Shown one piece after another: positions 4,679 to 37,386 of a stretch of 64,000 bases of DNA. The notes under the pieces are model-generated. The model made no database searches. It saw only the letters and a program-made list of their open reading frames with translations, and was not told the origin of the DNA. A program made the position numbers and the translations under genes. Positions within the stretch are counted from its first letter, which is position 1. Each line of letters starts with the position of its first letter. The stretch covers positions 7,586,280 through 7,650,279 of the forward strand of contig NC_135568.1 of the NCBI RefSeq assembly GCF_964340395.1. The letters run 5' to 3'. Origin of the DNA: Glandiceps talaboti. Taxonomy: Eukaryota; Hemichordata; Enteropneusta; Spengelidae.

Positions 4679-7600
4679 TCATAAATATTTGTTGAATTCA
4701 TACACGATCGTTGCTCCCTTCGTCGTAGCTTCCTTAGCTAAATCAATGATATCTACTTCAAATCCGTTGACGTATTCCGTTCTCTGCAAAGCTGCTGTAT
4801 GTTTATGGCGATTAGATATCTCAAACAGATCAGGAATCCAGCCATTTTTGGCCACGTCTTTGCCAGGCTGGATTCCAATCAGAAACTGAAACAGCGAGGC
4901 AAATTTAGAACTGAAATCGGTCCAGTGATAGTTCGACTCTAACTTTGTTCGAAGTTTAGTAGCGATGTCGCGCTTATTCTTGATATAGTAAAAACTACAA
5001 ATATTAGATTTTGGATCAAGATTATAATGCTTAATTTGAAATTCTGACATCATGCGATCTAGCAAATTTCGAACTTCAAGGATCACATCAGCTGATCTAC
5101 TAACTCTATCATCTTCCTTCTCTGATTGTGACTGTAAAATAAGAACTTTCCGGTACAAATCTTTTAAGTGATCACAAGGATAAAAAATACTATCAAAGGA
5201 CAATCTCATTTCGTCTATTTTCTCTTTGATGTATTCTGCTGATGAAGGTTCAGCTGTTGTCAAGAAATCTCTATAATCGTTAGACAAAGCATTAGAAACA
5301 CTGGCGCAATCATCAAGCCACGTCTGTTCAAATTTGTCGTAATTTTGAACAGTTTTGAGAATATCGATCAATTTCGAACACCCTTCAAGACTGCAACGCG
5401 ACGCTGCCTGAGCATATTCGCGTCTTGCCCCACAAATATCACCCTTTCCTTCCAAATTGGAACCTTTCATGGTGTGATATTTAACTTTCAACGATACATC
5501 AGTGCTGATGTCGGAATCACGAAAATATGTTAAATATCGACCTGCCTTTTCAACATTGCCGCTTTGTAAACAGAGATCAACAAGTATTTTGGCGATAGAA
5601 TCGTCATTTGATGTTTCGAATGCTTCTTCGTAAAAACGACAGGCTTCGGTAATATCTCCCATTTTGTTGTACACCCACCCAAGCTCGATAAGAGCATCGA
5701 CGTCATTTTCATTTCTGCGCAGATTCAAATTCATCGTCCTTATGATTTGTTCTGCTGCCCTGTGACCACATTGCGAGTTGGCGTTGATGGACAAGGCTTG
5801 TCTGTAAAATCTTATCGCGCTTCTGTCATCCTTTTCAAATTTTCTATAAAACTCGGCGAAATTGAAGTATGCTTCCGCTTTATCATTCTCGATTGCCAAA
5901 TCAATGAGTTGACTATAGATGCTCTTTGCTTGGGACAAATCCCCCAGCAGCGAGTACGCTAGGGCTTTATCACACGACGCTGCGAAATGATTACCTCCAG
6001 AATACTCGATTGCTTTGTCACAACTCTGAATAGATTTATGTAAGAAGCCTGTTGGATTACTTCTACTTTTACCCCTACAATTTTTCTTTGACTGAAAATA
6101 CATTTGTCTAAAGATCAAACCAATTTGGTGATGAATAAAACCTGACCGTGGCTCTCGTTGAAGAGCCCCGTGCAATAAATCTTGCGCTTTATCGAGCTTT
6201 CCGGCCTTCCTATAAAATTGCCCAGACCTCTGTAAAACTACTGTCGAAGTCGGGGACAACTTAAGGGCTGTTTGAAGTTGGAACTCTGCTTCTTCTGGTT
6301 GAGTCAAAGCAATATTATCAGCTAAGAAGACTCTCGCCATTGTATAGTTCCGATCTAGCTTGATGACTCGACGTAACAGAATCTCTTCTTCGCAAGTGGT
6401 TGTCCGACGATTATATCTTGATCGTTGTGTACGCCTGTTGTCAAAACGGTCTTTCCTGCCGACTACAAGTGCTAATCCAAACAACCAATCACAGTTCGTA
6501 GGACATGTTTCTAACGCTTTTTCATACGTTGCGATGCATTCTTCAAACTTCATGGGACCAAAACGAAAAAGAGCGACGGCCCTGTGAGCATTAATATAGG
6601 CACGTTGGTTGTCCGATTTGTCATCGACCATTCTTTCAAGGTCTTTCATGAGTTTTTCTACTTTGTCAAACTCTCCCAGCTCCAAATGCACCCGTGCTTT
6701 ATTAGTGAGAATGACGACCTTGTCACCGAGTGGACCGTCGTTGCGACCAATCTCCATTTCTTTTTGATTGTCCCTCAGTGCCTCTTCAAACCACCTGAGT
6801 GCGCTGGCGTAATTTTTCTTACCCTTCGGTGTGAGTTTGCAAACATACATATAGCCCTTCAGAGTCTTGAATGGTACCGGCAATATGTCTGGAGTATCAT
6901 GTAAATGTCGATCAATCTTGTTCATTTGATTCTGGAAATAATCAAATGTTACATACATACTTTACATGATTTGTGTCGATGGTCGATTTTCCGGTTCCAC
7001 GATGCATTGCGCGAGAGGTTGGCTTTTATGGTGTTACAGTTGGTCTTGTTTTTTTTTTAATGTTTGAAGTAACATTTTTATCAGGAAATGGAAGGAAAGA
7101 CATGTTGGCTTCTTTGATTATGTGTGATTTTATATAACAAAGACTAAACGCCATCAATGATAGAGAGGGGTTTTACGGCTGAACCCAGGTGACAACCCTC
7201 CCTCCCGCTGAGTAGCGTGTGCAAACCCCTCAGCGCGTACACCATACATGCGTTGTATGGAGAGACGCGCAATGCATCTTGGAACCGGCAACAGGTCTAT
7301 TGTGTGTGCATGTCAAACTAATATGTGATATGGATAGTCGACGGTATAATAGGACACACCCCCTATACCAGTCTAATAGTAGGTATGCATCATTGCAATA
7401 CGTACTACCGTGTAGGTATTGCTATTAAAGATGTTTCATTGTGTACTACAGATAAGAGAGCTCGGGAAGATACTAGACTAGAAGCTACCCAGCTTTATCA
7501 ATATGACTTCCAACCCTCTTTATATAAAGTTGGAATGTGTAAAAATAAAATAAAATAAATAAGCAAATACCAATATTTACAAATCGCATGCGCAGTATAG

Positions 7601-8063
7601 ACCGCCCTTTTCCTCGAATATTCTACTGCAAGCCATATTCAGTAATTATTGTGTAACGGAAAGGCATCAATCAGACCCATAATATATACATGATTTCCAT
7701 ACTTCCGTCTTATCGTGTTCTAAAGCGACGTCATGGAAACCATGTTCTCTAAAAGTCACATTCTGAGAGTCACGTTATCTAGACTAAAGTGACATGTACA
7801 TTGAGCCGCGTTTTTGTTAGTCATAATCACCTGATCACGTGGCTGGGGAGTTTATTAATTTACCAGTCACCTAAAATTCATGTTCTTTATTTGACGTCAC
7901 GTTTACCAGAAAAAACATATCTTTGGAAATTGATGTTAAAATCGAAAGTCACGTGATACAAGTCACGTACCTGAAAGTCACATTCAGAATCCTCTTCTAA
8001 ATTCCACGTGAAATGAGATGGATATTCCTTTAATTTATTTCTGTAGAACTCTATCGAGGCCAT
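4679..8063 (-). CDS. IFIT-like TPR protein A
   Basis: Two coding exons on the minus strand: 8063-7971 (31 codons) and 6931-4679, joined in phase 0 at GT (7970-7969) and AG (6933-6932); 781 residues. Exon 1 carries S-H-F-T-W-N-L, matching the R-C-H-F-T-W-E-L start of vertebrate IFITs. Exon 2 holds a TPR array (about residues 40-545) with an H-H-Q-I-G motif at about 298-302, as in human IFIT1. Vertebrate IFITs bind abnormal 5' ends of viral RNA in the cytoplasm; an RNA-sensing role here is inferred. Residues about 612-781 form an extra helical region with E-V-R-N-L-L-D-R, Y-Y-I-K-N, I-Q-P-G, N-G-W-I and N-R-H-K-H (738-742). Gene A is divergent from B-E and combines the KH motif of B and D with the N-G-W of C and E, so it may resemble the ancestral form. 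The start at 8063 is the first ATG before the motif. Confidence 0.9.
7757..7980. promoter_or_regulatory. Cluster of GTCAC / CACGTG / CRE-like motifs
   Basis: In and around intron 1 of gene A there are repeated A-G-T-C-A-C words, two E-boxes CACGTG (7836-7841 and 7950-7955) and a palindromic TGACGTCA at 7892-7899. This is the consensus for CREB/ATF-type factors and, for CACGTG, for bHLH factors. The density in 220 bases is notable, but function is only inferred. Confidence 0.35.
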
Positions 8064-8250
8064 GTTACACAACTACTTCAGAACAATGTAGGTTTGTGCT
8101 AAAATAGACAGTATGTGCACTGTTGATTTTATTGCTTAAAACCAGTTTCCACGTAGATTTAGGTATTCGTGTATCAGTCTGTAAAATTAAAAATAAATGG
8201 CTTAAACTGTTGTCTGTTGCTAGAGGAACATTCTCAGTAAATACCTTTTC

Positions 8251-8251
<1 letters not shown>

Positions 8252-8300
<49 letters not shown>
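8252..8300. repeat. (CA)n microsatellite
   Basis: About 24 CA units immediately upstream of gene A exon 1. Confidence 0.97.
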
Positions 8301-8303
<3 letters not shown>

Positions 8304-10026
8304 TTGTATACATAAGCTTGTGTTTTACACAGAAGACCTGGTACGAGTCGTCGTAACCAACGATTTTCAAAACTGCGACCTGAGACTTCTAGAAATGCGA
8401 TATGCGACTTTCTATGTGCGACCTACTACTTGCCAAACTACAACACACAAGACATGCGAGACTTGACAAACTCCAGTGTGTTTGTGTTGGGGGGGGGGGG
8501 GCTACTCCCTGTTTGACTATACTTACATATGTCACCTTTACGTTTTCTAGCCATTTGGTCTAAAATCAGATGTTTTTTCGAACACAATATTCTACAATTC
8601 GGTCCAATCTACATTGTTTTCGATTTTGCTTGGTCTAAAAGGTTGTCCATTGTCCTTTACCAAACTATAACTGTGCCATTAAATGGCCCCAAAATGTTGC
8701 ATCTTGAGGGGAAAAATACAAGTCGAGTGGAATATACATCTTGCTCTCCACCATTTCCTCCATATGGGACTACTACACTACAAATGTATTTTGTAAAAAT
8801 TTGATGTTCTCAAAACCTGCAATGGTCTAAAATGGGGTATTGTTTTTTGGTCAAATGGGGTCTGGGGTAATGGTTGGCGGTGTTGGCCGCGGATCCCTAC
8901 CAGAGATGGCCATTTTTAGGGGTCTGGGGTTGGCAGTATTGGCCGCACCTCCCTACATATCTAGAACTGGCCTCTGGTATCACCTGCGGGGCTAAACTAC
9001 GACTTCTGAAACTGTGACATGTGACTTCCATTTAAACTGTTGCCTACGATTTCTGACTCCAATATGCGACCCACCAAACTGCAACCTTTTTGTGTACTAT
9101 CAAATACATCATGTGTAATCCCTTTTCAGGATTTCTACATACTTTTTCTGTAAAAATTATGAATATTCACATAACAACTTATACGTCTACACTACCATGA
9201 CTTTAATCATTATCTAGAATTACACTAAAATCGTTTTAATCCCAGCAAACAATATCACAACATATACATTTTGGCAGCTACTAAACTACACAAACAACAT
9301 GGAAAGCAGCAGTCTAACTAAGATTTGAATCTGGAAGGTTTGTCGTTATTTGCGCTGCACATTGCAGTCGCCCACCCACAAATATACTTAGACACAGACA
9401 CCGACACCTACATCAAGCAACCCTACAACGTAACAATATATACGTATCTTTCAGTTTAACACCAAATAAACCAGGAAGGAAACAGGTGTTTTTTTTGTAA
9501 TTCGTCTTACCTGATCAAATCGTTTACGAGGACTTGTTGAACACACCGTAGTATGAACTGCTACATTACTTCAATACTTATGTTTTATCTGCTTTTATAA
9601 CAACGTTAACGTCATGAAGTTGCGCAACCCTAGTTATTTTAACTTCCGGGTCAATATTGATTATCTTCGATTAAGGGAGCCTTCACTACTATACAAGGGA
9701 GAGAGGGTCAGGTGAAATCAGACTCGGGCTGTCGCGTTAAACATGACCCTCTCCCAATTCTGTCGTTTTAAAAAGCGAGCCCACCTCAATTCCCTTTCTT
9801 TCAAATATGACCCTCCCCTGTTATAATATTCAAAACCATTGTTTAAATGCTGCCCGACATGGAAAATGACACTAGTCCCGGAATCAATTGTTTACGGGAC
9901 TTAATCCCACCGCTGCCACCACTTGAAAGTCTTACCGGCATTGGTTATTTCCCACCTGTCACCCCACAGTGAATTTGTGTGAAGGTGTTGGAATCTCATT
10001 GGCTGAGAGCCAGAACATTAACTCCG

Positions 10027-10129
<103 letters not shown>

Positions 10130-10295
10130 CACACTCCCAACATTGTCTAGACCGAGGACAACATGTCCACAACGTTACCTCTAAAATCTTACCCAACTTT
10201 TCCCGTTTTAATCCTGAGAGACCCACTTCTTTCCTCACATCACATCACAACTGACTAGTGGTTCACTGGATAGTTAGCGATTTGATTGAGTATCT

Positions 10296-10323
10296 AAGCC
10301 TAACCCTAACTCTAACCCTAACC
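10296..10323. repeat. Short interstitial telomere-like repeat
   Basis: Four to five tandem CCTAAC-type units (complement of TTAGGG) with two variant bases. The TTAGGG telomere motif is usual for most animals. Confidence 0.6.
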
Positions 10324-11761
10324 GATGTGGCAACAGTGGGATATAGAACCGGTGGTAGCAATGGGATGCAAAAAATCACAAAATAATGGAAACCCAGATA
10401 ATACAAGTCACTTAAGTAAAATATGACCCTACCGTAATCCAATTTTCTGAAATATGGTCCTCCCTCGGGAACCGATTTGTAAAAGGTGATCCTCCCCATT
10501 CCCCTGCCCCCCTCCCCTTGTACTGAATGCTCCCTCACACGACTAATAACTTCACCTCCGTACACGTATAACCCAAAGTCCGATTACCTCGACTGTATAC
10601 GAAATGGGCATGCGCAAGAACACTCGTTCGTTTGATCTGGAGTATTAAAGCTAAAGTGTTCCCAAGTTAGAGATACAAGAAGTACTTTTAATTGTAAGAG
10701 AAGTGTTGATTTTAGTTGACGTAAGTCTTCTAATGAAAATTGTAATGATAATGAAATGATAGTAGAAAAACGTTACACAGTGCTTGATATCAAACCCAGT
10801 ATTAATAATATAAATTTTTTAAAACACATCATGTAGACGATATAACAGACCGTCAGATTAATTCATAAAAAATATGTATGTTTTATTTCTGTACTTTGGC
10901 CACAGGCCTATGGTACGACAAATACGACAAATATAAAAGAATATACAAAGACAGAGGAGATTAATTCATTACTAGAACTGACCAAAATAGAAGAAATTCT
11001 ATGAATTTCAGGTACTCTATATCTACTAGATTTCATAGAATTCAAAATGAAAGTAAGTAACATGTAGTCTCTGTGTTCTGCGTATTTTGGGTTCACTTAC
11101 CTGAAATGACCTTATTTGTTTCCATGGTAGCAGTAATAGATGATACCATAGCGATAGTGTTAATACATAACTATTTTACGAAATAAATGCCTTTCTAATT
11201 TTTAAAAGTTTAATATTTTCTAATTTGTCGGTGGAACTATACCTCATTAGTATGATTTGTACTTGGGTTTGTCCTTATTGGGGTCAATATGCAAATTATC
11301 AGAACCACGTGACAAAGAGATCAACTCGTCTACGTAGAATACATTATAATAATGAATAGGAGTTCCAGGTAATTGAATGTGTTGCTAAGAATACAACCAG
11401 GTAACTACAATGTCATAACAGCTACTCTTGTACGTAATTCGCTTTTTGATAGGGTCAAAATTATTGCATGATTTGCGGATTTTTTTCTTCAAATTATTGA
11501 TTTTTTTATCATTTTGTTGCTAAAAATGCAAGGTTGACGTTTAAAATTGTGTTTATCAATTCATTCAATTTTATCGATTCACACCCCCACCCAGCCGTAA
11601 CATGCCGTGGATTGGTACCGAACGAACACAAGACCTGACGACACACTACAAAAATCAATGATCAACCGAATTCAAAGTATAACAATGCTGACAAACAGAT
11701 AAGTTGATATACAGCATGTCAAATTGAGTACTTCCTGGTATTAATACTATTTTCCAACTAT

Positions 11762-11817
11762 TATTGGCTGAGTACATGCATATAAACCCACACGTCAACG
11801 GACAGCGTTATCAGTAC
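11762..11817 (+). promoter_or_regulatory. Core promoter of IFIT-like gene B
   Basis: An inverted CCAAT box (ATTGG, about 11763-11767), TATAAA at 11781-11786 and an initiator-like TCAGTAC at 11811-11817, 30 bases downstream of the TATA start, which is canonical spacing. No clear interferon-stimulated response element (GAAANNGAAA) was seen in the 150 bases upstream. Confidence 0.55.
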
Positions 11818-11923
11818 ACTGGGCATACCTGTTCCGACTGTGCACAGCTATCCGCAGAGTTGCCTACCTCAATTTTGTCACATTAACGTAGAGTGTCTCA
11901 TACCGAGGGGCCAGAGGAACCAG
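11811..11923 (+). other. Probable 5' non-coding exon of gene B
   Basis: The stretch from the initiator ends at C-A-G followed by GTAAGAG (donor GT at 11924-11925). It would splice to the acceptor AG at 12272-12273, two bases before the coding ATG. Similar pyrimidine-rich acceptors precede the ATG of genes C, D and E, so a non-coding first exon seems to be a family trait. Confidence 0.5.
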
Positions 11924-12274: not shown

Positions 12275-12423
12275 ATGGCGGATATGGATTCCATTGCGAG
12301 CAGTGTTGGATATGAAGAACGACTAGAAGCATTTCCTTGTCATTTTATGTGGAGATTAGACGACAAGTGTGGTAGAGATTTTAAGGTATATTCAGTTATT
12401 TATTTATTTATTTATTTATTTAC

Positions 12424-12478
<55 letters not shown>

Positions 12479-12569
12479 GTCTGTATGTGTGTATCTGTCT
12501 GTCTGTCTGTTTGTCTGTGTGTCTGTGTGTCTGTGTGCCTGTCTGTCTGTCTGTCTGTGTGTGTGTGTG

Positions 12570-12618
<49 letters not shown>

Positions 12619-15099
12619 GACTGTCTGTCTGTGTATATATTCTTTCGTATCACTTTCAAAGGACAATTATTCCGATAGTAAATATTTTCACACTGACTAC
12701 ATAATTATCACTTTATAATTAACTACATATTTTGTTTTCATGTAACAATGTCAAAATATTATGAACAAATATCTCATAAAATAACCAACCTTTTAAAACT
12801 ATTAGAGTTTTCATGAAACCAATGTATTATCTATTTGCAGACTGCTATGGAATATATAGACCATCACTTAGCACACAATCCAGATGAGATGACAGTACCA
12901 GCTATGGCAGTGAAAGCATACCTGTATATGTCAAATCTCAAAGACAACAACTTAAAGGATCCCCAAGCAGCTTTGGAATGGATTGAAGATGCATTAGAGA
13001 GAAACGAAAGTGACTTGAGGGAAGATGCGAGTCACGATGGACCTATTGGGTATAAGGTTGTCCTCCTGGCAGATCAAGCATGGGTGTACTTTAAGCTTGG
13101 CGAGATTGAAAAAGCCGAGCCTTTAATCGAAGAGTTAGAAGCACACCCACCCCTGTCAAAAAAGGCAGAAGCATATTTGAAAGCCATAAAGGCTTTTACT
13201 TTTCAGTGGTTTAGTCGATCAAAATTTCTAGAGGGTATTGAGAGCTATAAAGAGGCGTTGATAGTCTTTCCATCAAATGTCGATTGGTTGTTTGGGTATA
13301 CTCGACTTCTTGAAAAGAAGAAGCATAATCCTACTCAAGGTGTTGGTGAAGTTACAAAGATAGAACAAAATCTTCGTCACATATTAAAGGTGAACCCGAA
13401 ACATGGGTTAGCACGAGCATTTCTTGCCAAAGCTTTGGCGGAGAAAGGGTCGCACCTTGAGGCAGAATATGAAGCCAATCGAGCACTCGACATTGATGGA
13501 AATAATTTCGTAGTTGTACAAAGAGTTGGGGAAGCCTTTCTTAAGTTAGAAAAGTTTGACGAAGCCCTTGAGCTATTTGAAGAGGCGCGTGATTCTGAAG
13601 CCGATTCCAGCTTTACCCTGGGATTGATTGGTAGTGTATACACTAAGAAATATTACAAGCAAAAACCAGGTAAACGAAGCAAGGCTAATCTTGAGAAAGC
13701 TTTAGAGTATTACCAACAGGCCATAGAGGCCGACAACAGCAATTTTCGTGCAAAGTGTGATCAGGCTAACATGTATTCTCAATTAGGTAATGTTGTAAAG
13801 GCCAAACAATTATATTTTCAACTTGTTGAGACCGAAAATGAAGACGATAAGGCAGGTGCGCTTTACTATTTTGGTTTATTTCTTGATAAGCAACTCCGTA
13901 AGACAAGTGAAGCGATGGAGCAATATAAAAAGGCAATAAAAATCCAACCTGATAGTTTTGGTGGAATCAGAGCTGGAAAAGAAATCACTGAGAAAATGCA
14001 GAGGAAAGTGTCAGAGAATGAGAATGATGACAAAGCATTAGAATTGTTAGGATGGGTCTATAGTAAGAACAACTATTTTGACAGTGCGTGCTTTCACTAT
14101 GACAAGGCATATGAATTGAAATCTTCGGACGCAGATTTCAACCCATCGAACGCAGTGTTGACAGTGAAATTAGCCCAGCTACATATTAAAAGTGTAGCTC
14201 CGGACCAAGCATTCGACTACTTAGAGTTAATCAAAATGACGGATATTGACGAATATCGCCGTTTGAAAGGTAAATTCCATTTTGTGAAAGGCAGAGAATA
14301 TACACGGCTAGGTATGAATGATAAAGCAAGGTTAGAGTTTTCAAGTTCAGCAGAGTATGACGATCTTGAAGGATGTGAGAATCTAATCACTTTATTAGGA
14401 ACGTGTACGGATGATGCAAAATACGAGAAACGCTGGTTCGAAGATTTAGCTAAGGTAATTTCGATGTCGAGGAAAGAACCATTCTTGATTCAACGATACA
14501 GAGGAAAGATAAGTGCTAAGGAGATAGACAAGCGAATAAATGCACTCAATTTGGCAAAGAACAACATTATTATGCCCGCTGTGCTGTATTTACACGATTT
14601 GTATAACAAGTACGTCAGTTTTCTTGCGGATGCTCAGCCGAATGTTATTCAATGTGCCGATGTTTTGTTAGAAGCCAGGAATTTACTTGATCGTGTAATG
14701 GCCGACTTTCAAGACAGGGAATACGGTCCCAAACAATCCCATTGTTCATTTATCTATATCAAGAATACAAACTCCTCGGTATACTTAGACCTACAAAGAA
14801 AACTTGAAAGTCCACCTCGGGGTGGTTATGGCTGGACTGGCTTCAGATCAAAATACATGGCCTTGTTTGATGCTTTAGTTGAAATACAACCAGCGTATGA
14901 CTTCAACGAAAATAAGAATTTGATATTTCTGTACGATATTGTCAACAGACATAAACATAATACAGCCATGTGTGGGGACGAAGAGAAACTTCAAATCGAT
15001 GGTATTACGCACCTCGTAAAGTTAGAATCTCTCGCTGAATGGTCCGTCATCAAAGTTTCAAAGTTAGTTAAAGAGTTTGACAAACATATCTCAAAGTGA
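12275..15099 (+). CDS. IFIT-like TPR protein B
   Basis: Exons 12275-12385 (37 codons) and 12841-15099 join in phase 0; 789 residues. The ATG lies just after an acceptor at 12272-12273. Exon 1 carries [12 protein letters not shown] motifs run from about residue 45 to 540; the [13 protein letters not shown] segment lines up with N-P-D-N-G-Y-I-K-V-L-L-A of human IFIT1, and [11 protein letters not shown] with its N-F-A-W-M-Y-Y segment. The extra C-terminal region has [10 protein letters not shown] (about 648-657), I-Q-P-A-Y and N-R-H-K-H (739-743). Gene D is the closest relative, and the last ~70 bases of the intron plus the start of exon 2 are nearly identical between them. The intron begins with TTTA and CTGT microsatellites. 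A cytoplasmic RNA-binding defence role is inferred from the IFIT family. Confidence 0.92.
12398..12634. repeat. (TTTA)n and (CTGT)n microsatellite in gene B intron
   Basis: TTTA units (12398-12422) followed by about 200 bases of CTGT units with GTGT interruptions, starting only 12 bases after the exon 1 donor site. Confidence 0.97.
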
Positions 15100-17940: not shown

Positions 17941-20900
17941 ATGGCTGCTGCACCGTGGTCATACGAACAGAGTTTGCTGTTGTTGGAAGACTTTCCAAGT
18001 CACTTTATTTGGAATCTGGAAGGCGATGATGTGGATATTAAGGTAAGATCTTTTTTTTTATCAAAAGTGTTCATGGCTTTATACTACACATAATATTTCA
18101 AATATGACCAGTTCACAAGGCAGACCTAAGTTTGCATCTTTAATTCACGATGGGTATATTTTTACTGTTAGATACTCATTGACCAAAAAACATGCATCAG
18201 CTTGTAGATCAAATGATTTACAAAGGTTAAAACGCACAAGCTGTTCTTGTTTTTGACATGGAGCTTTCGATCTGAAGATCTTTATCAGGGTGACAGCTGA
18301 CCACTACTGGTACTAGGTGCCGATTGGAGACGTTAGGTAGTTCGGTGTCCCTCGTCTCTGTTGATCTTTGGAATTTAGCGTCTGGTGTTGATATCCTCCC
18401 TGATCTTTCTTGGGAAATCACGTGGGGATCGAAACAGAATCCCAGTCAATGTCATGATTGTAGCCAGGGGAGTGTTCAGCTAAGGAAGATGTTCCAGTTT
18501 TGTCCCTGACAGATTAGCAATGTTCCTCGATCCTTGCTTTCAATTGTCCTCCCGAATCGCCAATATACAGTTGATCACAATTGTTCTCCCGATTCGCCAA
18601 TATACAGTTGATCACAGTTATTACAAGGTACCTTATATATCACCCCAAAGCGATGTTCAGATGTTGTCTTATCTTTGGGTATGAGAGTAAAGTGCACTTA
18701 ATACATGTTATGCTTCCTGTACACCCTAAACAGTTCATCAGTGATATGTGTGTATACATTTGTTACAAGGCCGGTCTGAAATGTTTCTTGTGTTTGAATA
18801 CGTTGGGTTTTCCTCACGAGGGAGTTGTATTAATTTTCTACAGGTACACTCAGTGGCACAACGACCACTATAAATTTCTATCGTGGTCTAACGTTTCGCC
18901 CAGAGCACAGCTAAGGTTCCTAGTCTTAAGTACTCCACCAAAATAGTCGTTATTAGGATTTTAATTGAATGACAAGGTCACAGTCAAAGTATGTCATCTG
19001 AGATTGAATATAACAATATCAACTCAAAATAATGCATCTGTTTGAATTTCTTCTCCATTTAGAAAGTAATGATACATCTGGACAATCATTTGAGAGATAA
19101 TGCTGACAAGGTTCCTGTACCATCTAAAACCTTCCGCGGTTATCTGCATATGTCATCACTGAACCCACGAGGAGAAAGAGATCCGAACGAAGCTCTTTCT
19201 TGGTTTGATAAAGCTCTACAAGATAATGACATGGAGATGCAGGAAGATACAGAAGATGAGGGACCGATGGGGGACAGAATTATAATTCTAGCAAACAAAG
19301 CTAGGGTTCTCTTGTCTCTGGGTGAGGACAAAGAAGCAGGAGAAATACTAAATCAATTGGCAGGCATCAAAGAATATTTGAAATTAGAAAAGGTTAAAGC
19401 TTACATAGATGCAAATAAGGCCTTTTGCTTGAGTTGGCTTGGGCCAACTAAAGTTGAGATGGGATTGAAGTGCTATGAAAATGGCCTCAAAGCCTATCCC
19501 CAAAATGAGCATTGGTTGTTTGGGTGTGCATTAATAAATAAACGAAGTGAAAAAATAACCAACCAGGAACAGGAAGCTTCTGAGGAGGAAATCCTATATC
19601 GTAGAATTCTAGATATAAATCCCCAAAATACGCTTGCGCGGGTTAACCTAGCACGAGTTCTTGCTAATAGGAATTGCGATTTCGAAGCAATGTCCCACTA
19701 CAGGCAAGCTTTGGAAGACGGAAGAGATAAGGTCACAGTAGTTCAAAGAGTGGCAGAACATTACCACTGGAAAGGTAATTTTAGTAAAGCTATCGAGCTG
19801 TTCAAGGAAGCTCTTGATTTAGAGCCAAGGTCAGCTTTCATAAATCACCAGCTCGGCAGTATTTATAAGAAATTGGCCAAACATAAATCGAAAGTTGAGA
19901 AAGCCAGGTACTTGAAGATCGCAATCGATTACTTCAATATCGCTGTAGAATTATCTGGTAACACACTATATTCCGCGTTGAATGATAAAGCTTACACACT
20001 CAGTGAACAAGGGAAGGTCCAAGAGGCCAAATCTCTGTTTGAAATCCTTCTGAATTGTGAAGATAAATTCGACAGGGCCGTATCTCATCTAAATTTCGCA
20101 CGGTTTTTAAAAACCCAGGGCAAGGCAGAACAAAGCAATGCTACGCTGCACTACAAACTGGCTCTGTTGGCATATCCGACATGCCGTAGTGGGCAAGCTG
20201 CGGCGGAAGCACTTCGAGAAGAAACCATGAAAATGTTATCTACCAACCCTAAGAATGTCGTGGCCTTGAAATTGATGGGATGGGTTTATACTAAAATAAA
20301 ACATTACGAAAGCGCCTGCTTTTATTATGAAAGGGCGTATGATATTGAACCGTCTGACTTTCTAGCTTTTACTTTAGTTGATTTATTTCGTGAAACCAAT
20401 AATCCAGTCAAAGAAGGTGAATTTTTGACCAAAGTTGAGCACTCTGATGACGAAGCAGATAATAAAGCTGCTTTGTATCACCTAACAAATGGAGATAATT
20501 ATACGCAAATGCTAGAATTAGAAAATGCTCGGAGAGAATATTCTACAGCAGCGGGATTAGGGTCACTTAAGGGCTCTGAGGGATTGTTCAACACTCTCAA
20601 ACAGATAGCAGATGAACGAAAATATGAAAACGCGTGGTTTAATGATTGTGCTAAAATTCTCCGTAATGTTTCAAATACGCGAGTATTAATTGAGCGACGA
20701 CCAGGGGGTAACAACAGTAAACTTAATGCTAGGGCAAGGAAATTACATGCAAATCTGTTAGATATAATACCACCACGTGTTCAAGTCTTGAAAGATCTGT
20801 ACAGTGATCACGTGCAATTCCTAAGTGAAATAATTGATAGTGACCACAGTGATCTAATAAATATCGGGAAGGCGAGAAGTTTGATGCGGAAAACACGAGC

Positions 20901-21324
20901 AGTCCTCGATCGCTGTGTGACGGAATTTGAATCACACAACTTTGATCATTACACGGGCAACAGTTTCTTCTGCCTTACAGGTGGCGCCATTCCTTGCAAA
21001 GTAAAGGAAAAGGTTCGAAGTTATGGGTGGGCAGATTTCCCCCTCCGATTTGGCAAGTTGTTCTTGTTCCTGGTTGATATCCAGCCAGGGAGTAACCATC
21101 AGGAGAATGGTTGGTTGGAAAAGCTGTTTTCAGTGTGTGATGATAACGACCAACCTGTAGATTTAATGATGCAAGGTTTATCTGTTAACGATAGCAATCC
21201 TGTGTGTGATGTAGCTTTAGTGGAGTTAGCAAAGGAGGCTGTCGTTAAAACAGCAATAATTGTACGTGAATTTTATAAGTACATAAAACCAGTAGAATCT
21301 GAAGACGAGGTACAGTTTGATTAA
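17941..21324 (+). CDS. IFIT-like TPR protein C
   Basis: Exons 17941-18042 (34 codons) and 19063-21324 join in phase 0; 787 residues. An acceptor AG at 17918-17919 precedes the ATG by 21 bases, again pointing to a 5' non-coding exon. Exon 1 shows F-P-S-H-F-I-W-N-L-E. The TPR array includes F-I-N-H-Q-L-G-S-I-Y, equivalent to the H-H-Q-I-G segment of vertebrate IFITs. The C-terminal region keeps I-Q-P-G and N-G-W-L-x-x-L-F, but where A, B and D have N-x-x-K-H it reads D-D-N-D-Q-P (727-732), so the histidine is lost. It ends in an acidic tail. Gene E is the nearest relative, with strong nucleotide similarity at the start of exon 2 and over the last ~100 codons. The intron contains a Penelope-like fragment on the opposite strand. 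RNA sensing is inferred from the family. Confidence 0.92.
18228..18750 (-). mobile_element. Degenerate Penelope-like retroelement 3' end (GIY-YIG)
   Basis: Read on the minus strand, 18750 to 18228 gives pieces of the C-terminal end of a Penelope-like element: R-V-Y-R-K-H-N, then G-V-I-Y-K-V-P-C-N-N-C followed by D-Q-L-Y-I-G-E-S-G, the C-x2-C-x3-Y-I-G signature of the GIY-YIG endonuclease. Downstream come A-R-I-E-E-H and, in another frame, L-P-N-V-S-N-R. Stops, frameshifts and an internal tandem duplication of about 42 bases (18550-18615) show that it is dead. It lies entirely in intron 1 of gene C, antisense to it. Confidence 0.75.
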
Positions 21325-22602: not shown

Positions 22603-22605
<3 letters not shown>

Positions 22606-22690: not shown

Positions 22691-22696
<6 letters not shown>

Positions 22697-27785: not shown

Positions 27786-30511
27786 ATGGCGGACTCGGAT
27801 TCTATTGCAACAAACGTTGGTTACGCGGAACAGCTTGAGAATTTTCCCTGTCACTTTGTTTGGCGATTAGAAGACAAATTCAACCGAGACTTCAAGGTAT
27901 GTAGATCCTATTGTCATTAATTTTATATATTAATTCGAATAATGATTTATGATTTATATCGGTAATCATCAGAAACACTAAAGTCCGAACGAGAATTTTC
28001 TCCAGAAACCCCTAAATTAAATCTTTCTCTGAATTGACTAGTGGGAGGGGATATTGCTCAACCATACACGTCTAAGACTCAACAAGCAATTCTTGATAAG
28101 GTATGTGTTTGTTGTCTACAGACAGCTAGGAGTTATATTGACCACCACTTAAAACACAACCCAAGTGAGATGACAGTACCAGCTATGGAAGTGAAAGCAT
28201 GCCTGTATATGTCTAAATATCTCATAAAACAATCAACCCTTTAAAAGTATTAGAGTTTTCATGAAACCAATGTATTATCTATTTGCAGACGGCTATGGAA
28301 TATATAGACCATCACTTAGCACACAATCCAGATGAGATGACAGTACCAGCTATGGCAGTGAAAGCATACCTGTATATGTCAAATCTCAAAGACAACAACT
28401 TAAAGGATCCCCAAGCAGCGTTGGAATTGATAAAGAAGGCTTTGGATAGAAACGAAAATGACTTAAAGGAAGACACCAGTCACGATGGGCCCATTGGGTA
28501 TAAGGTTGTCCTCCTAGCAGATCAAGCATGGGTGTACTTTAAGCATTGCGATACAAAGAAAGTTGAGGAATTAATTGTAGATTTGGAAGAAATACACGAA
28601 TCATTATCAAGGGAGGCAGGGGCATATTTGAAAGCAATTAAGGCTTTTACTTTTCAGTGGTTTAGTATATCGAAGTTTCTAGAAGGTATTGAGTGTTATA
28701 AAGAGGCTGTAAGTATTTTTCCGTCAAATGTCGATTGGTTGTTTGGATATACTCGACTTCTCGAAAAAAGATCATATTTGACAACACAAAATGTTTCTGA
28801 CATTAGTGAGATAAATCTTCGTCAGATATTAACACTAAACCCAAAACATGGGTTAGCACGCGCTTTCCTTGCCAAAGAATTGGCGGACAAGGGGATTAGA
28901 TCACATCTTGAAGCAGAGTACGAGGCCAATCAAGCACTCGACATTGGTGGAAATGATTTTGTTGTTGTTCAAAGAGTTGGGAAGGTATTTTTGACGTTAG
29001 GAAAGCATGATCGAGCTCTTGAGCTTTTTCAAAAGGCACTCGATTCAGAACCAAATTCTAATTTTACCCTGCGATTAATCGGTGATGTTTATCGGGCAAA
29101 ATATTTTAACCTGGCAAAAGAAGACGCACAATGTGAAGTGTATCTTAAGAATGCTATAGAATATTACGAAAGGGCAATTGAGGCAGATAGTAGCAATTTC
29201 GACGCAAAAATTCGAAAGGCTGACCTACATTCCCGACTAGGTCAGACTTCCAAAGCTGAACGCGAGTATCTTCAACTAATTGAGGCTGAAAATGCAGATA
29301 ATAAGGCATCTGCATTATACAACTTTGGCCTCTTTCTCGAATATCAGGATGAAAACAATGCAATTCAGCGATACAAGGAAGCCATCAAAACTGATCCTAA
29401 TAGTTTTGGAGGGCGAAACGCAGTGACGAAAATCATTGAAAAAATGCAGCGACGTGTTTCTAGAGATAAAGAAGATTATGAAGCTTTAGACATGTTGGGA
29501 TGGGTTTACAGTAAAACTGGTTATATTGATAGTGCGTGTTTTCATTACGAAATGGCATATCGCGTAAAACCGTCAAACACTTTGACACTGAAATTAGCTC
29601 AGCTGTATGTCAAAAGTGTAAATCCTGACAAAGCATTTAAATACTTGGAGATGATCAGAGAGTCAAAAAGTGACGAATATCGACGTTTGAAAGGTAAACT
29701 ACATTTAGCATTGGGTATTGAATACAAAGAACAAGGCATATACGATCAAGCACGGAATGAGTTTTCGAAATCGGCATGCGTAGAATACAACTGTCTCGAA
29801 GGTTGTGAGAACCTCGCCAAATTTCTACAAAATTGTACAGAGGATGACAAATACGAGAAACGCTGGCTGGAGGATTGGGCCAAAATCGTTTCAATACTAC
29901 GAAGAGAGGGAGACTTGATTAAACAGCACAAGGGTAAAATAACAGGCAATGAGATAATTAATCGCCTAAAAGCGCTTGAAGAAACTCAAAAGAAAGCTAT
30001 GATGCCCTCCGTACGATATCTTCGCGACTTGTATGACAAGTATGTTAAGTTACTTCTCAAACCGTGCGTTGATGAATATGTGCAGGTTTTACTGGAGGCA
30101 CGCAGTTTATTGGATCGAGTGATGAGTGACTTCCAGTCGAAACATTACCCGTCAATTTCACCTAAGAATACTCGCTACACATTCTTTTACATCAAAGACA
30201 CAGTCAAAGTTGAATATGATCTGCAGAAAAAACTAGAAGGAGATTACCATTGGATCGGTTTCAGAACCTACTATCCAAAGCTATTCAAAACTTTGGTAAA
30301 TATTCAACCAGCATACGATTTTAACGATAATAAAAATTTGATATTTTTATTCAATACTGTTAATAAATACAAACATACTAAATCTCTACAACCTGGGGAA
30401 CAGGGAGACAAAATTGGTGGTAATCTCTACTGTTTCAGCTTACAAGATCTGTCTGACTGGTCCGTCGTCAAAGTTACAGAAATTGTTCGACAGTTTGATA
30501 AACACATGTAA
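27786..30511 (+). CDS. IFIT-like TPR protein D
   Basis: Exons 27786-27896 (37 codons) and 28289-30511 join in phase 0; 777 residues. The acceptor AG at 27781-27782 precedes the ATG by three bases, as in gene B. Exon 1 carries F-P-C-H-F-V-W-R-L-E. TPRs fill about residues 45-530 and the helical C-terminal region carries E-A-R-S-L-L-D-R-V-M, F-F-Y-I-K-D, I-Q-P-A-Y and N-K-Y-K-H (729-733). Protein B is similar throughout; the start of exon 2 and the intron before it are almost identical at DNA level, suggesting recent exchange. The intron contains a broken extra copy of the exon 2 start (28122-28216) with its own acceptor; its use would lead to a stop at 28242-28244. The functional choice is the second acceptor at 28287-28288. 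The role is inferred as for the other IFIT-like genes. Confidence 0.92.
28122..28244 (+). pseudogene. Vestigial duplicate of IFIT-like exon 2 start
   Basis: After an acceptor (AG 28120-28121) the frame reads T-A-R-S-Y-I-D-H-H-L-K-H-N-P, then M-T-V-P-A-M-E-V-K-A, clearly a copy of the first ~32 codons of exon 2. At about 28217 similarity to exon stops, and the sequence continues as a copy of the intron that precedes the real exon 2, ending in TAA at 28242-28244. It could act as a poison exon, but is more simply a recombination scar. Confidence 0.85.
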
Positions 30512-33500
30512 TATTTTAACGGTATTCGAAATGTCGGTAAAGTTTGCAGATATGGCAAAAACAGTGTATTAATAAGTATTAAAGGGAATCGTGCACCTGT
30601 GTTTTGGTCGCTACGGCTCAGAACGAGAATTGTAAACCGATGTTGTGCAACAGGTGTGACCGGTCTTCGTCTGCAAGGGACATGAGCTGACCTAAGTCGC
30701 GTACGACTTTAACACTTCATCCGGGTCATCAATATCAGTAGAAGTCAATTTCATTTGAAAGCTAAATTCGCGAGTGACCTTTTGAAAAACTCCGAACTCT
30801 AATTAATATGGCCAACGAATACTTATTGGCATTTTAACAATTTTAAGTGAATATGCTGTAAGAAATAATACCCCAGTTATGACTAGTGCAGTTTGGAGCC
30901 ATGGAACACTTTTATGAAGTTAATTAATGAATAGAACTTGCTGTAAATAGCTTTCCCATACAAAGTCTGACTTGATATACTTTCTAGTTCTGTACTATTT
31001 CAGTTTGTCATATTTTGTATGCTTTATCTTTCTTGATTTTTATCGTTGTTGTTGCAGAATTTCTAGCAGAATCAGCAGCCTCTTTCTGTAAACGTAATAA
31101 GACTTATTGAGACTGGATTATATTGTATATGATCATATACCTATGCCAAGATCAATCATCTTGATGACGTTAACGCCAAATGTTACTTCTGATATAGAAC
31201 ATTAAACGTCATGACATTCACGATATCGACGATACATCAGAAAAACATAGCAATTCCGAAAATAAACAACCAAAATAGTGGCCGAGCTTCGGCGTAACCA
31301 TAGCCACCCACTACGTGTACGATGCACTATCCTGCCCTATTAAGTACTACCGACATTACTGATGAGTTGTACTCGTAAACGACCATTTACTTTGATTAAC
31401 ATATTAAAGCATTTTCAGAACCTTTTGGAGAACCTACCCAAGTTGTATTTCGATATATTAATGCAAGGTTGGACCGAAATCTGTTGAAAGTTGAAGATCA
31501 TTGAAAACATTTCATCGAAACGGGTTGACAGTATCATCAGGAAATGTCACGTGGTATAGACTAACATAGCTGTACCCTTGTTATTTTCCGTGTGTCTTTG
31601 GATTCTTGGTCATAGGCATATGATAAATCGCTTATTACCTGATATCACCTCGTATCGCCATTTATGTCGTTGCTCAACGTGACACGTCTTACGAATCGTG
31701 TCACTTTGCAGAAACGGTACTCATGGCACTACGGCAAACGGAAATGTGATATCCGATAATACCTTAATAGTATTTTATTATAATGCATAGTATAGTATTG
31801 TATTGTATATTGTGTTGCTGTATTATATATATATTGCATATGTTATATATATGTGTGTGTATATATAATTCTATTATATCATCACATTATTGAAACAGTT
31901 TTGTCTTCGTAATCTTAGCAGATAGACAGAAACAGCTTCATTATCTGAACAAAGTTGTGATGTGAGGATTTTGGTGCTTTGTTTATATTTGTTGACACAG
32001 GAAGCTATGTATTTTCTATATACAGGCTGCACTGAAAACCACGTCTACCCAAGATCATGCATGGTCACTAATACATCCATGTATTATCCAGAACACATAC
32101 ATATTGTCTATGAGACAGAGAAATTATAGCTATATTTATTTTAACCACATTAAATGCAACAGTGGAGGTCAAAACATGAGAACAGTAGTCTTAGTATCTG
32201 CTTTATTCATTTTAAGACATCCAGTTCAATAGTTTGGTCAAATACAACTAACACTCGTTCTAAGTAGAGCCTGCTGTAAATAGTTTTCTGTCCAAAACAT
32301 AAAGAAGGCATTTATCAATTATAACCCAACTATGTAAGAAAGTAAACTGTTTTTACGTACTTTTAGCACTGTTACAACAAATGAAGCAGTAAAGCTTGTC
32401 AGTAGAACGATATTCTTTATGTCAAAAGAATCGTACACGTATCATGAAGGCTATGTTGTTGGTTTTCGTCTGCACATTGATTATAGAACACATTTATATA
32501 CTTGTGAAACAGACGTGTCAAAAAGCAACAATTTATCTACGAGAAATAGTAAATGTTAAACTTATCGGTAGTAAAGTTTTGAGTGTGAGTGATAAGAACA
32601 TACCTGATGTTCCAATTAAAATTACGTTTGTCACTAAATCTCTGTCTCTGTCCTTTTTTTAGTGTATGGCAAGCATTTCAGGCCAAAAGTATTAAGGTTT
32701 TATTATGATTTAGGTTTCGTCAAACCAGATTTGTGTTAATAGATAATTTCTAATAAATTTAAATTTTTAATTTTAGATTTTTAACATTTTTAACAAAATG
32801 TTCTGGAATTTTTTCGGAACTAATTAATTTCGGATCGTGATCCATGAATGTGTTTCATTTGCTTTCTATAGCAGGGGTGTGGAGTAACTCAAATGACTGA
32901 CTTTCGGTAGGCCTAACATGTTGGTCGATGTAATTTGCACTTACAATGCATAGGCATGTGATTTGAACACATACGAATACATACAATGGCACTCCTACTG
33001 GCATATGTTAGACCTTTCTCTGTTCTAATTGTTCTTTATCCAACCATTCAACTCGATGCGATAAACGTTCAATCAACAATTGGTCTTTTTCTGCTCCCCC
33101 CCCCCCGTAAACAGAGGTGAAATGGCGGTAGCCAGAGCCTGCTGAAATTCTGCGCGGGGGGGGGGGGGTCGATAAATGTTTCCATCGGGCAAGAAAAAAT
33201 GCTCTGAACCTGGGGCATCTGACATCCTATCTGTGAAAACCAAAATAGGATGATCCCTATCATTGATGTAAATCATTTAGTTTGGCCATTGGATTGTGGT
33301 GTGAAACTCACAGTAGTTGGTATCTCTGATAACCAGTTTGCCTGAAGTTGGCACACATGCTACCTTAGTTAATAGTGTTTTTACTATTGTATAATGTGAT
33401 CACAGGGTGATTATGGACACATAACCAAAGCCCACTTTTGTAATCCACCAGAAGCAATTTGTGTAATCCAGAAGATACACTAACAATAACTTTTTCTATC

Positions 33501-34203
33501 ATAGTTTGCCTATAGTTTTTGACGTCCGCAGTAGTAAATGGGATACAGACGCTCATAGCTCTTAGTATTACCTCTATCACAAGACCTTTATAGGCACTAG
33601 GGTTTTGTGCATACGTGGTACAGTCACTATTACACATACATGGTATAGGTCAGTACGACACTATATAGACATTACTGTGTTACGTACGTTCACAAATTGG
33701 AGACAGTTAGGTTTTGGGATCAGATACCATCCGTTGATGTCATTATAGTCAGTCACGATTTGAAAACGTAGTCAGTTTACATTGACATAAAACTCCTCAC
33801 CAGTGCCTAAGGTGTCAGGGTGTGTGTTTGTTTTTTGAGGGGTTAATGTGTTTTATTGTTAGGCGATCAACAGTACAGAGTCAGAACATATCACTTTATA
33901 TGGTTGCAGGAGACATCGATCGAATGTCTTAACTGTTTACTGCACTGTCTAGATATATCCTTAGCTGATAGTGCCTCCTAGGATCAGCTATTAAACAATG
34001 AATCTCGACAGTGCAGTAAACAGGCTATCAAATACCACTATGCTATTCAAATTCAGGGCCACTTTAATGTATACCAAGTGTGTTGTACCACTCATGTAAC
34101 ATTGATATCATTGCGTCTGTAGCAATTAAGATCGTTGTATTTACACCGTCAGCATACTGATAATGCAAAAAAACCTATTTCTCATTCTTGTTCTGTCTTT
34201 CAG
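30512..34203. other. Interval between genes D and E
   Basis: No gene recognised. A short TA/TG-rich run lies at 31,820-31,870, a C run and a G run about 60 bases apart at 33,095-33,170, and an inverted repeat with 17-18-base arms at 33932-33949 and 34007-34023. Confidence 0.6.
30578..30583 (+). terminator. Possible poly(A) signal of gene D
   Basis: ATTAAA 67 bases after the stop codon, followed by a GTG-rich stretch. Confidence 0.35.
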
Positions 34204-34220
34204 GTTCAAGACTGACACAA

Positions 34221-37200
34221 ATGGCTTCCATGTTAATGCCAAGTCAACTGATTGAAGAACTGCAAGAGTTTCGTTGCCATTTTGATTGGAATCTAGAAGA
34301 TGGTTTAGATTCTTCAACAGATATAGAGGTGAGTTCATGTGTTATCTTTCACTGGGTTATATAATTCAATTTACTACAATCATAGGAAGTCTAGAGATTG
34401 GCTGCTTGACATTGATAGTCATCATTGACAGCTACACCTCTCTTGGCTGGGCATTACCAGGTATTGGTAGGTGATGACTGTTGACTGCTAAAGTCATAGT
34501 ATGGCTCCGTTGTCCGGAGAGGCAGTACGTGTATGCATCTCGTGTCCTTAACGTAAAGCAATGCATGTGCGCATGTTATTAATGCAACACAATGCATGTG
34601 TTCATCAGCTAGTGTGCTAGTCTAGTTCCAGACGGACTGTATTCGACACTATATCCATATGAATATGTATGAAGTTTAACGCATATAGTCGAATATAGTC
34701 CGTCTGGAACTAGTCTACTAGTGTGCCAAAGTGTAGGACACATTTGCATTCAGCCTGGGTCTGTGGGCTAGCTGTGAGATATGTGTACAGTAAAAAGGGC
34801 TCGTGTGTGTACATGAACCCTCAATCAAGGAAAGTCAATGGATTGCGTTGCCATCAATGTCCATCTGTAAACTCATTCCAAGATTTGAAAACATGTATTA
34901 TCCTGTTAGCTGTGAAAAGTTTGGAAGTGGTGCATCAATGTATACATGTATGTATCCTTCCGAAACGTAATATTCTAATTATCCCTTCTTTTAATTTTTT
35001 ATACAAATTCTACAATCGTTGCTTTCTGAAGAGTTTTGACCTACTTTACTTATCAATTGATGTCGATATTTTATTTATTTTTTATCGTTAGACAATCACG
35101 ACAGGTCTGGACAATCATTTAGAAGATCATGCTGACCAACTGCCTGTATTTTCAAAAACTTTGAAAGGTTATCTTTACATGTCATCACTGAATCCACGAG
35201 GAGAAAGAGATCCACACGAAGCTCTTCGTTGGTTTGATAAAGCTGTAGAGGATAATGAGAAGGAGATGCAAGAAGATACAGAAGATAAAGGACCAATGGG
35301 GGACAGAATTATAATTCTAGCAAACAAAGCCAGGGTTCTGTTGTGTCTGGGTGAGGACAAAAAGGCAGGGGAAATATTAAATACATTAGCAGGTATCAAA
35401 GAACATTTAAAATCAGAAAAGGTTCAAGCTTATATAGATGCAAACAAAGCATTTTGCTCGTTTTGGCTAGGGCAATCTAAATTTGATCTTGGATTAACAT
35501 GTTATGATAGGGCACTTAAGGTGTATCCTACAAAAGAATCTTGGTTGATTGGGAAAGCACTTCTTGTGGGTAAGTTTAAACACTGCATGAGAAGTACAGT
35601 TTCGGAACAAGGAGTGTCCGAGCTGGAAATTATTTATCGTAAAGTTCTTCGAATTAATCCAGATAATATGTTTGCCAGAGTTAGACTTGCAGTGACCCTT
35701 GCCAGTAGAAAGTGTGATTACGAGGCCATGCATCATTTCGATGAAGCATGGCTTCATGGTAAAGATAAACTCCATGTAGTTACACATGTTGCGGAGTTTT
35801 ACCTTCGTAAAAGAGATTTTCGTAAAGCTCGTGGCTTATTAGATGAAGCCCTTTGTCTACATCCCAAGTCCCCATTTATCCATCGTTTATTTGGCGATCT
35901 TTATCGGGCAATGGCTAAAACAGGAAAGTATGAAGTCGGGAAAAACAACCAGACTGCGATTGAATGGTATGATAAGGCTATGAAATTATCATTTAGTACA
36001 AAACCTGCTGTTTTGCGCAATAAAGCTTGGGTCTTGTTTGATCAAGGTAAAATTCAACAAGCTAAAGCAGTATTTGAACAACAAACAAATAGTCAGTCTA
36101 CAAGTATCTTTGGAAAGGCGGACAGACATCTCACATTTGCGCAGTTTTTAGATAAACTGGATGTGGAAGAGGAGAAACGAAATGCAATGCGACAGTACAA
36201 AATGGCTTTAATAGCTCATCCAACACGTCGTAGTGGCAGTTGTCTACAAACGATCAAAATATTGAAAGAGAAGTGTGTAGAATTACTGTCTGTCAATCCT
36301 AAAAATGTAGATGCCTTAGAACTGACGGGTTGGTTGTATTCGAAAATAAACCACACAGAGAGTGCGTGTTTTTATTACGAACGGGCCTACGAAATAAAAC
36401 CGTCCGATTTTCTGGCCTCTACCTTAGTTGACCTGTACAGGGGAGCAAACAACCATCTTAAAGCAGACGACTTTTCGAGCAAAATTATATATTCGAACGC
36501 CGAGGAAAAAACAATCAAAGATGTGTCGTTTCACATTTCAAATGGCCAGCAAAGCTATGAAATGCTAGAATTTGATGTCTCTCGGAGAGAATATTCTCGT
36601 GCAGCGGACTTACATTCGCTGCAGGGTTCTGAAGGTTTGCTCAATGTACTCAAGCAGGTACCAGAGGATGGGAAATATGAAATAGCGTGGTTTAACGACC
36701 TCGCAAAAATTCTCGTTAATGTCACAAACACGTCTAAATTAATAGAATGGAAAGAAGAAGGAGACAACGAAAAAGTTAGTAAAAGGGCTAAAAAATTACA
36801 TGCTGATTTGTTTGAGATTTTGAAACCTCAACTTCGCGTTTTGAAAGAATTGTACAAGGAAAATGTTGAATTCTTTAGCTTGACATTCGACAGTGACCAC
36901 CAAGATCAAATTAATGTAAGCAATGCGACCATGTTACTGCGAAAAGCACGTGACCTACTCAACAGCTGTGTGAGAGGATTTGAAAACTCTAACTACAATC
37001 TTCGAGACACGGGTAATAGATTCTTTTATGTCAAAGATGGCCACAGCATTCCTCGTGAATTGGCGGAAAGAATTCTAAGTTATGGGTGGGTAGATTTCGC
37101 CCTCCGATTTGGGAAATTGTTCCTCTTCCTGGTTGATATCCAGCCAGGGAGTAACCTTCGGGAAAACGGTTGGTTGGAAAAGTTGTTTTCAGTTTGTGAA

Positions 37201-37386
37201 GATAACGACCAACCTGTAGAATTAATGCTGCAAGGTTTATCTGTTAATGATGGCAATCCGGCGTGTGATGCAGATTTAGTAGAGTTTGCAAAGGAGGCTG
37301 TTGTTAAAACAGCAATAATTGTACGTGAATTCTACAAGTATATAAAACCAGTAGAAGCTGCAGATAGAGTAGAGTCAGTTGGTTAA
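34221..37386 (+). CDS. IFIT-like TPR protein E
   Basis: Exons 34221-34328 (36 codons) and 35092-37386 join in phase 0; 800 residues, the longest of the five. An acceptor AG at 34202-34203 precedes the ATG by 17 bases. Exon 1 carries [10 protein letters not shown], the closest of the set to the vertebrate IFIT start R-C-H-F-T-W-E-L. TPRs fill about residues 50-550. The C-terminal region has F-F-Y-V-K-D, I-Q-P-G, N-G-W-L and, in place of the KH motif, E-D-N-D-Q-P (739-744), as in gene C. C and E share long blocks at both ends of exon 2, while the middle TPRs differ more. The intron holds a foldback repeat (34609-34727). Start choice: three in-frame ATG codons lie at residues 1, 4 and 6; the first is used here. 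Confidence 0.92.
34609..34727. repeat. Foldback repeat in intron of gene E
   Basis: Arms of about 40 bases around GTTCCAGACGGACT and its complement, separated by about 30 bases. It may be a MITE relic. Confidence 0.7.

Follow-up and report, generated by a model that had tools for sequence, protein, structure and literature searches.

Vertebrate IFIT proteins comprise about 480 residues, are built from tetratricopeptide repeats (TPRs) only and bear a CHFxW-type motif at their N-terminus. A survey from 2013 sets the origin of the family in jawed vertebrates and judges TPR matches from acorn worm and lancelet to be non-IFIT (PMC3688568). Here, we analysed a stretch of 64,000 nucleotides from the acorn worm Glandiceps talaboti (contig NC_135568.1, positions 7,586,280 to 7,650,279 of the forward strand), in the following called the window. 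Five genes with two exons each were identified in it, of which A is encoded by the minus strand and B to E by the plus strand. Their predicted products combine an IFIT-like TPR array with a separate C-terminal domain.

The predicted proteins have lengths of 781 (A), 789 (B), 787 (C), 777 (D) and 800 (E) residues. These values are the summed lengths of exon 1 and exon 2, which were read from the sequence and not joined, and they bear out an earlier note on this DNA that had announced five proteins of 777–800 residues at this place. Exon 1, as read, consists of 31–37 codons with a [CS]-H-F-x-W motif and is followed by a GT donor in all five genes, while exon 2 codes for 740–764 residues.

Further copies were sought in the organism's own assembly of 590 Mb in 47 contigs. 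Only the best candidates were scored, so that all counts are lower bounds. Searches with the C-terminal domains of B (E up to 0.01) and A (E up to 1) led to the same places, at least six, all located on contig C22. All six are long IFIT-like open frames, namely the five window genes and a further gene, F, at 380 kb of C22. The domain of F contains NKQKH and M-Q-P, and an exon-1-like reading with SHFTW is found upstream. With the whole protein E (E up to 1e-10) at least 13 places were detected, i.e. the six long copies and seven stretches on contig C4. The latter comprise six frames of 430–449 residues and one of 202 residues, match only the first ~450 residues of the query and are devoid of the domain. 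These short IFIT-like genes are themselves clustered (C4:6.06–6.40 Mb, loci L022–L028).

The N-terminal part of the long proteins is homologous to vertebrate IFITs, as had been claimed. Proteins A and B served as phmmer queries against PDB sequences. For A, at a limit of 1e-10, human IFIT1 (1.1e-29, residues 88–443 of A) and IFIT5 (2.4e-28, residues 114–454) were matched, with weaker matches to IFIT2 (9.1e-12) and an engineered TPR protein (1.1e-11). For B, IFIT5 is the best natural protein (6.4e-19, residues 30–436), and IFIT1 follows with 5.5e-14. The similarity to IFIT1 and IFIT5 covers roughly the first 440–450 residues of the long proteins. The long copies A to F were also compared pairwise by blastp with the human IFIT1 and IFIT5 stretches. 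All six match the IFIT5 stretch at 3.0e-18 or better, and for the short copies the corresponding limit is 7.6e-12 (five of five). In a tree calculated from 13 sequences (six long copies, five of the seven short stretches and two human proteins), support is obtained for the two human proteins as a pair, for the short copies as a set and for the groupings B/D and C/E. A and F have no supported position in this tree; a single clade for the long set is thus unsupported.

It could be argued that this likeness is generic TPR similarity and that the genes form an unrelated TPR family. The survey of 2013 did not accept the TPR matches of acorn worm and lancelet as IFITs (PMC3688568), and for B the engineered TPR protein 9qhb ranks above IFIT5 (2.2e-21 versus 6.4e-19). 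For A, however, IFIT1 and IFIT5 are ahead of the engineered protein by 17–18 orders of magnitude. Moreover, the alignment is colinear over ~350 residues, and a HHQIG block, the short first exon and the exon-1 motif, in vertebrates of the CHFxW type, point in the same direction. We regard generic similarity as a very unlikely explanation.

The surplus beyond the IFIT match amounts to ~300–315 residues in A and B, of which approximately the last 200 form the non-TPR domain. A distinct C-terminal region had been foreseen in the earlier note, and this part stands, but its size had been put too low, at about 170 residues. Of the conserved sequence blocks named there, [GH]-W-x-x-F and I-Q-P are present in 5/5 window copies, whereas A/V-R-x-L-L-D-R (TRAVLDR in C, ARDLLNS in E) and F-x-Y-I-K (FFCLT in C, FFYVK in E) are exact only in A, B and D. 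The motif N-[RK]-[HY]-K-H occurs, as claimed, in A, B and D and in these window copies only; the corresponding residues are DDNDQ in C and EDNDQ in E. Including F, the K-H pair is found in four of the six genome copies. When all six are aligned, 21 columns do not vary; these include R69, L72, F79, W121, F124, Q139 and P140 (numbering of the B domain). The similarity goes beyond chance, with 50% identity between the domains of B and D and 62% between those of C and E. For the latter pair, nonsynonymous divergence (dN) is 0.23 and synonymous divergence (dS) 0.70; dS is saturated in most other pairs.

The earlier note had named further TPRs as the alternative, and this did not come true. Five C-terminal slices (232–261 residues) gave no match to any TPR model in Pfam at E up to 10, and a crude TPR scan found its last TPR-like window at residue 469 of D. 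An AlphaFold model of the B domain, calculated with the six-copy alignment, is compact (pLDDT 81.4, pTM 0.75) and comprises helices at 15–32, 35–52, 58–84, 103–112, 124–127, 129–137, 144–160 and 184–206 and strands at 170–175 and 178–183. In our judgement the modelled helix lengths are unlike those of a helix-pair solenoid. R69 lies within helix 58–84, while N158–H160 terminate helix 144–160 and K161–H162 follow directly. Behind this helix the confidence of the model falls (mean of 61 for block 161–170). Judged from sequence and model, the C-terminal domain is real and distinct from the TPRs, and a continuation of the repeats is unlikely.

No meaningful family could be assigned to the five slices in Pfam, PHROGs, NCBIfam and PADLOC, where nothing better than E 0.04 was obtained. 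The best PDB sequence match of the five-copy domain alignment, VioF (4yfv, E 0.0067), was judged to be a chance match. Searching plasmids with the B domain by tblastn gave no match, and profile scans of viral contigs with the domain alignments gave none either. The D domain produced two prophage matches among phages at E 1, and the protein concerned proved to be unrelated (hhalign P 0.26). In the titles and abstract openings of the accessible literature, a coverage that most subscription papers lie outside of, no IFIT with such a domain was found.

The earlier note had suggested a resemblance to small bacterial helical proteins of HEPN-like type because of the order I-Q-P, leucine helix and N-x-x-K-H. 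A bacterial family was sought through its motifs (R-x-A-L-D-H and N-x-D-K-H), from which a composite probe was made; with an E limit of 1 this probe matched 20 records of plasmids. Real bacterial sequences were obtained from ten plasmid loci, six genome-contig loci and 4/196 and 27/394 genomes (the seed genome counted each time). After rows shorter than 140 residues or more than 90% identical had been dropped, 57 matched rows yielded an alignment of 42. The family shows the motif order GDxxHNLRxALD...FP...QP...NxDKH (e.g. L031, L033 and L065) and includes gp32 of Gordonia phage Samba (275 residues), which has the same order and matches the bacterial family with 3e-7 in tblastn. In the 42 rows, His of N-x-D-K-H is present in 42 and Lys or Arg in 40; Arg and Asp of motif 1 are found in 40/41 and 38/41 rows, respectively, and His of R-x4-H in only 12/41. 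Scans of 29 family members gave one weak Pfam match, unrelated by name, one match to phrog_13652 (function unknown) and none in PADLOC. Some of the plasmid members (set L029–L044, L082) adjoin genes for a methyltransferase, a recombinase or ImmA/IrrE.

Comparison of the animal profile (six rows) with the bacterial one (42 rows) in hhalign resulted in a score of 33.4 and a P of 2.6e-4, an optimistic value that is uncorrected for choice because the family was picked for its motif. P fell as the bacterial profile became deeper, from 0.021 (7 rows) via 0.0053 (11 rows) to 2.6e-4, and the comparisons with 11 and 42 rows bring motif 1, Q-P and N-x-x-K-H into register. Among 200 column and 200 block shuffles the best score was 24.2, so that 0/400 reached that of the real profile; the reversed profile scored 16.3. 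When the full-length alignment was cut into slices, the seven that did not hold the complete domain attained at most 16.4, compared with 32.3 for the slice containing it, and the four copies with K-H alone scored 30.4. The suggested likeness in ordered motifs thus holds, and we consider it moderately well supported, on sequence grounds, that the domain is distantly related to this uncharacterised bacterial and phage family; we regard this kinship as a good lead.

The earlier note had also raised a HEPN-like fold. In a Foldseek search of the domain model against the PDB (169 matches with an E limit of 10, of which none reached 0.001), the HEPN protein 2hsb was found with TM-scores of 0.36 by query and 0.55 by target (prob 0.66), and the Csm6 entries 5yjc and 6tug with 0.36 and 0.34 by query, all among the best 50 of the 169 matches. 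Csm6 is given as HEPN-carrying in PMC3710099. These three entries lead by TM-score among the matches listed, with E-values of 1.1–2.5. Against BFVD, 254 matches were obtained, none at 0.001; the best is A0A514TZW7 (275 residues, E 7.9e-3, prob 1.00, TM-score 0.44 by query), an unnamed viral protein that equals Samba gp32 in length and may be identical to it. The bacterial family was compared with HEPN sets as well, giving P 0.25 for PF05168 and 0.17 and 0.027 for two and four LA2681 sequences. The LA2681 profile was made from four of five loci, L103 being left out, and a search of 396 genomes for HEPN comparison loci yielded none. A HEPN-like fold of the animal domain is plausible, though only hinted at by TM-scores with insignificant E-values, and HEPN membership is not claimed.

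We tentatively favour the following explanation and would give it slightly less than an even chance. Each gene would code for an IFIT-like intracellular protein whose N-terminal half is a TPR superhelix of the kind seen in vertebrate IFIT1 and IFIT5, to which it is homologous. A mainly helical domain of ~200 residues follows, probably distant kin of the bacterial and phage family. In favour of this are the IFIT1 match of A, the exon-1 motif and GT donor of all five genes, the location of all six domain copies found in long IFIT-like frames, the compact model and the profile link to the bacteria. By analogy, the TPR part most likely senses or docks a ligand, either RNA or a partner protein, and we infer, again by analogy, that the C-terminal domain acts as an effector, putatively HEPN-like in fold. 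The Arg of helix 58–84 and the Lys-His following helix 144–160 (B numbering) are candidates for a functional role in A, B, D and F. The proteins C and E would act as partners without catalytic function.

Several results weigh against this explanation. The bacterial link has a probability of only 42.5 by hhalign's own measure, and C and E alone do not give it (score 15.2). A plain hidden Markov model search separates the family poorly, with an area under the curve of 0.684 and a best score of 6.2 bits (55/460 frames positive), where positives are the 55 named frames only and the Samba protein was scored as negative. For RNA sensing, 19 RNA-contact residues of IFIT1 are listed in PMC8143464, of which 16 fall within the compared stretch. 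Some of these speak in favour of the explanation: the site of R187 is Arg or Lys in six of six long copies, A and F retain R262, A and C retain H289, and Q290 is present in A, C and F. Against it, seven of the 16 (K151, G154, G190, Y218, R255, Y256 and K336) are retained in 0/6, and binding of cap or 5'-ppp RNA is therefore unsupported. Regarding the effector, K-H is missing from the window copies C and E, no Foldseek match in the PDB has an E-value below 1.1, and the Pfam HEPN models do not match the five C-terminal slices. Profile comparison of the animal domain with HEPN sequences was null as well, with P 0.54 for 11 PF05168 frames, a weak test as the rows are whole long open frames, and P 0.33 and 0.54 for two and four LA2681 sequences.

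These null results also count against a stronger proposal, raised in the earlier note, that the domain is a self-contained HEPN-type RNase and the protein a one-piece RNA sensor and cutter. This proposal could draw on the leading TM-scores of 2hsb and Csm6 among the 50 matches listed, on the record of LA2681 HEPN as a TPR fusion (PMC3710099) and on motif 1 of A and B, since R-N-L-L-D-R resembles R-x4-H with His replaced. In addition, the alignment at P 0.027 pairs R-S-A-L-D of the bacteria with R-N-A-L-E-H of LA2681 HEPN. R-x4-6-H is not conserved in the animal copies, however: motif 1 has the form R-x4-R in five copies (A, B, C, D and F) and R-x4-S in E, and the R-x4-H of F (RMETVH) is not common to the other copies. 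N-x-x-K-H is separate from motif 1, and its pairing by eye with R-N-x-x-x-H of HEPN domains is unsupported by the profile comparisons. Together with the missing K-H in C and E, this makes a HEPN-type RNase rather unlikely.

Alternatively, the domain may be a non-catalytic module for interaction or dimerisation on the IFIT scaffold, its conserved residues being structural (helix caps and core). C and E lack K-H, yet dN stays below dS between their domains, and 6/6 copies share Q-P, W-x-x-F and hydrophobic positions without change, compared with 4/6 for K-H. In our judgement, however, the near-complete conservation of His and Lys or Arg in the bacterial N-x-D-K-H exceeds what helix capping usually needs. 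A purely structural module is doubtful but a serious possibility.

Table 1. Positions of the exons and C-terminal stretches of genes A to E in the window.
Feature	Position	Strand	Remarks
Gene A exon 1	7971..8063	-	31 codons, SHFTW, donor GTACGT
Gene A exon 2	4679..6931	-	750 aa; IFIT-like TPR array and C-terminal domain
Gene A C-terminal stretch	4682..5302	-	NRHKH 4799-4813; VRNLLDR 5054-5074
Gene B exon 1	12275..12385	+	37 codons, CHFMW, donor GTATAT
Gene B exon 2	12841..15099	+	752 aa
Gene B C-terminal stretch	14473..15096	+	ARNLLDR 14674-14694; IQP 14884-14892; NRHKH 14944-14958; AlphaFold model
Gene C exon 1	17941..18042	+	34 codons, SHFIW, donor GTAAGA
Gene C exon 2	19063..21324	+	753 aa
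Gene C C-terminal stretch	20659..21321	+	DDNDQ replaces N-x-x-K-H at 21139-21153
Gene D exon 1	27786..27896	+	37 codons, CHFVW, donor GTATGT
Gene D exon 2	28289..30511	+	740 aa
Gene D C-terminal stretch	29885..30508	+	NKYKH 30362-30376
Gene E exon 1	34221..34328	+	36 codons, CHFDW, donor GTGAGT
Gene E exon 2	35092..37386	+	764 aa
Gene E C-terminal stretch	36721..37383	+	EDNDQ replaces N-x-x-K-H at 37198-37212

A pattern resembling the interferon-stimulated response element occurs 19 times in the window if one mismatch is allowed; 14.0 are expected, and 11 of 100 shuffles reach as many. The IFIT-like cluster is adjoined by exon-like frames with TPRs (42234–46604), which resemble DNAJC7. Elsewhere in the window, a receptor-like frame of 362 residues with leucine-rich repeats (874–1962; LRR_8, E 4.9e-23) and a frame of 683 residues for which Pfam gave nothing with an E limit of 1 (58109–60160; by eye leucine-rich-repeat- or F-box-like) were noted. 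By eye, an open frame at 62601–64000 resembles the endonuclease and reverse transcriptase of a long interspersed nuclear element and runs past the window edge. In the same assembly, the mitochondrial contig C40 is apparently a tandem assembly, with COX1 appearing three times at steps of 15,435 bases. In 972 bases of its COX1 there are four ATA codons, three of them at sites usually occupied by Ile, and no AAA codon; the GC content is 0.53 over 15,601 bases, and by eye the frames seem to be arranged as in vertebrates. These features suggest an enteropneust hemichordate, in agreement with the stated origin of the DNA.

The acorn worm thus has two sets of IFIT relatives, in contrast to the origin in jawed vertebrates given in the 2013 survey (PMC3688568), and the long set has an extra domain that looks common to it and to bacteria and phages. 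Should this domain prove to be an effector, it would point to a way for an IFIT to work independently of the vertebrate interferon system, an idea that is directly testable with recombinant protein. A far-reaching interpretation, which we consider distinctly unlikely, is that in an invertebrate IFIT branch a TPR array that binds RNA became joined to a domain with an Arg/Lys-His active site that came from bacteria or phages. The result would be an RNA sensor and a nuclease or nucleotide-modifying effector in one protein, regulated by the inactive C and E, and the short vertebrate IFITs would lack or have lost the domain.

Among known systems, the LA2681-type HEPN (PF18733) also sits C-terminal to TPRs (PMC3710099), and the LA2681 sequence L100 contains an L-L-D-K-V stretch. 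It differs by its R-N-x-x-x-H, which the animal domain lacks, and the profile comparison is null. The DZIP3/hRUL138-like HEPN of animals (PF18738) is comparable in that a HEPN-type domain and TPRs occur together in families of immune genes (PMC3710099 and PMC9646362), whereas the window domains give no Pfam match to PF18738. The bacterial and phage family shares with the animal domain the order of the R-x-[AL]-L-D helix, Q-P and N-x-x-K-H. In contrast, its ten annotated plasmid genes code for 221–346 residues with no TPRs noted, F-P takes the place of F-x-Y-I-K, and, by sequence, the stretch from N-x-D-K-H to the C-terminus is longer. Exon 1 of vertebrate IFIT genes contributes ATG and two bases of coding sequence (PMC3688568), compared with 31–37 residues in the window, where it is longer than in mammals. 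The window proteins further differ from the shorter, TPR-only vertebrate IFITs by their 777–800 residues and extra C-terminal domain, and the long copies retain the RNA-contact residues of IFIT1 in part only. Common to them and vertebrate IFIT1 and IFIT5 are a colinear TPR array over ~350–400 residues, tandem genes, a short first exon and the CHFxW-type motif at the N-terminus.

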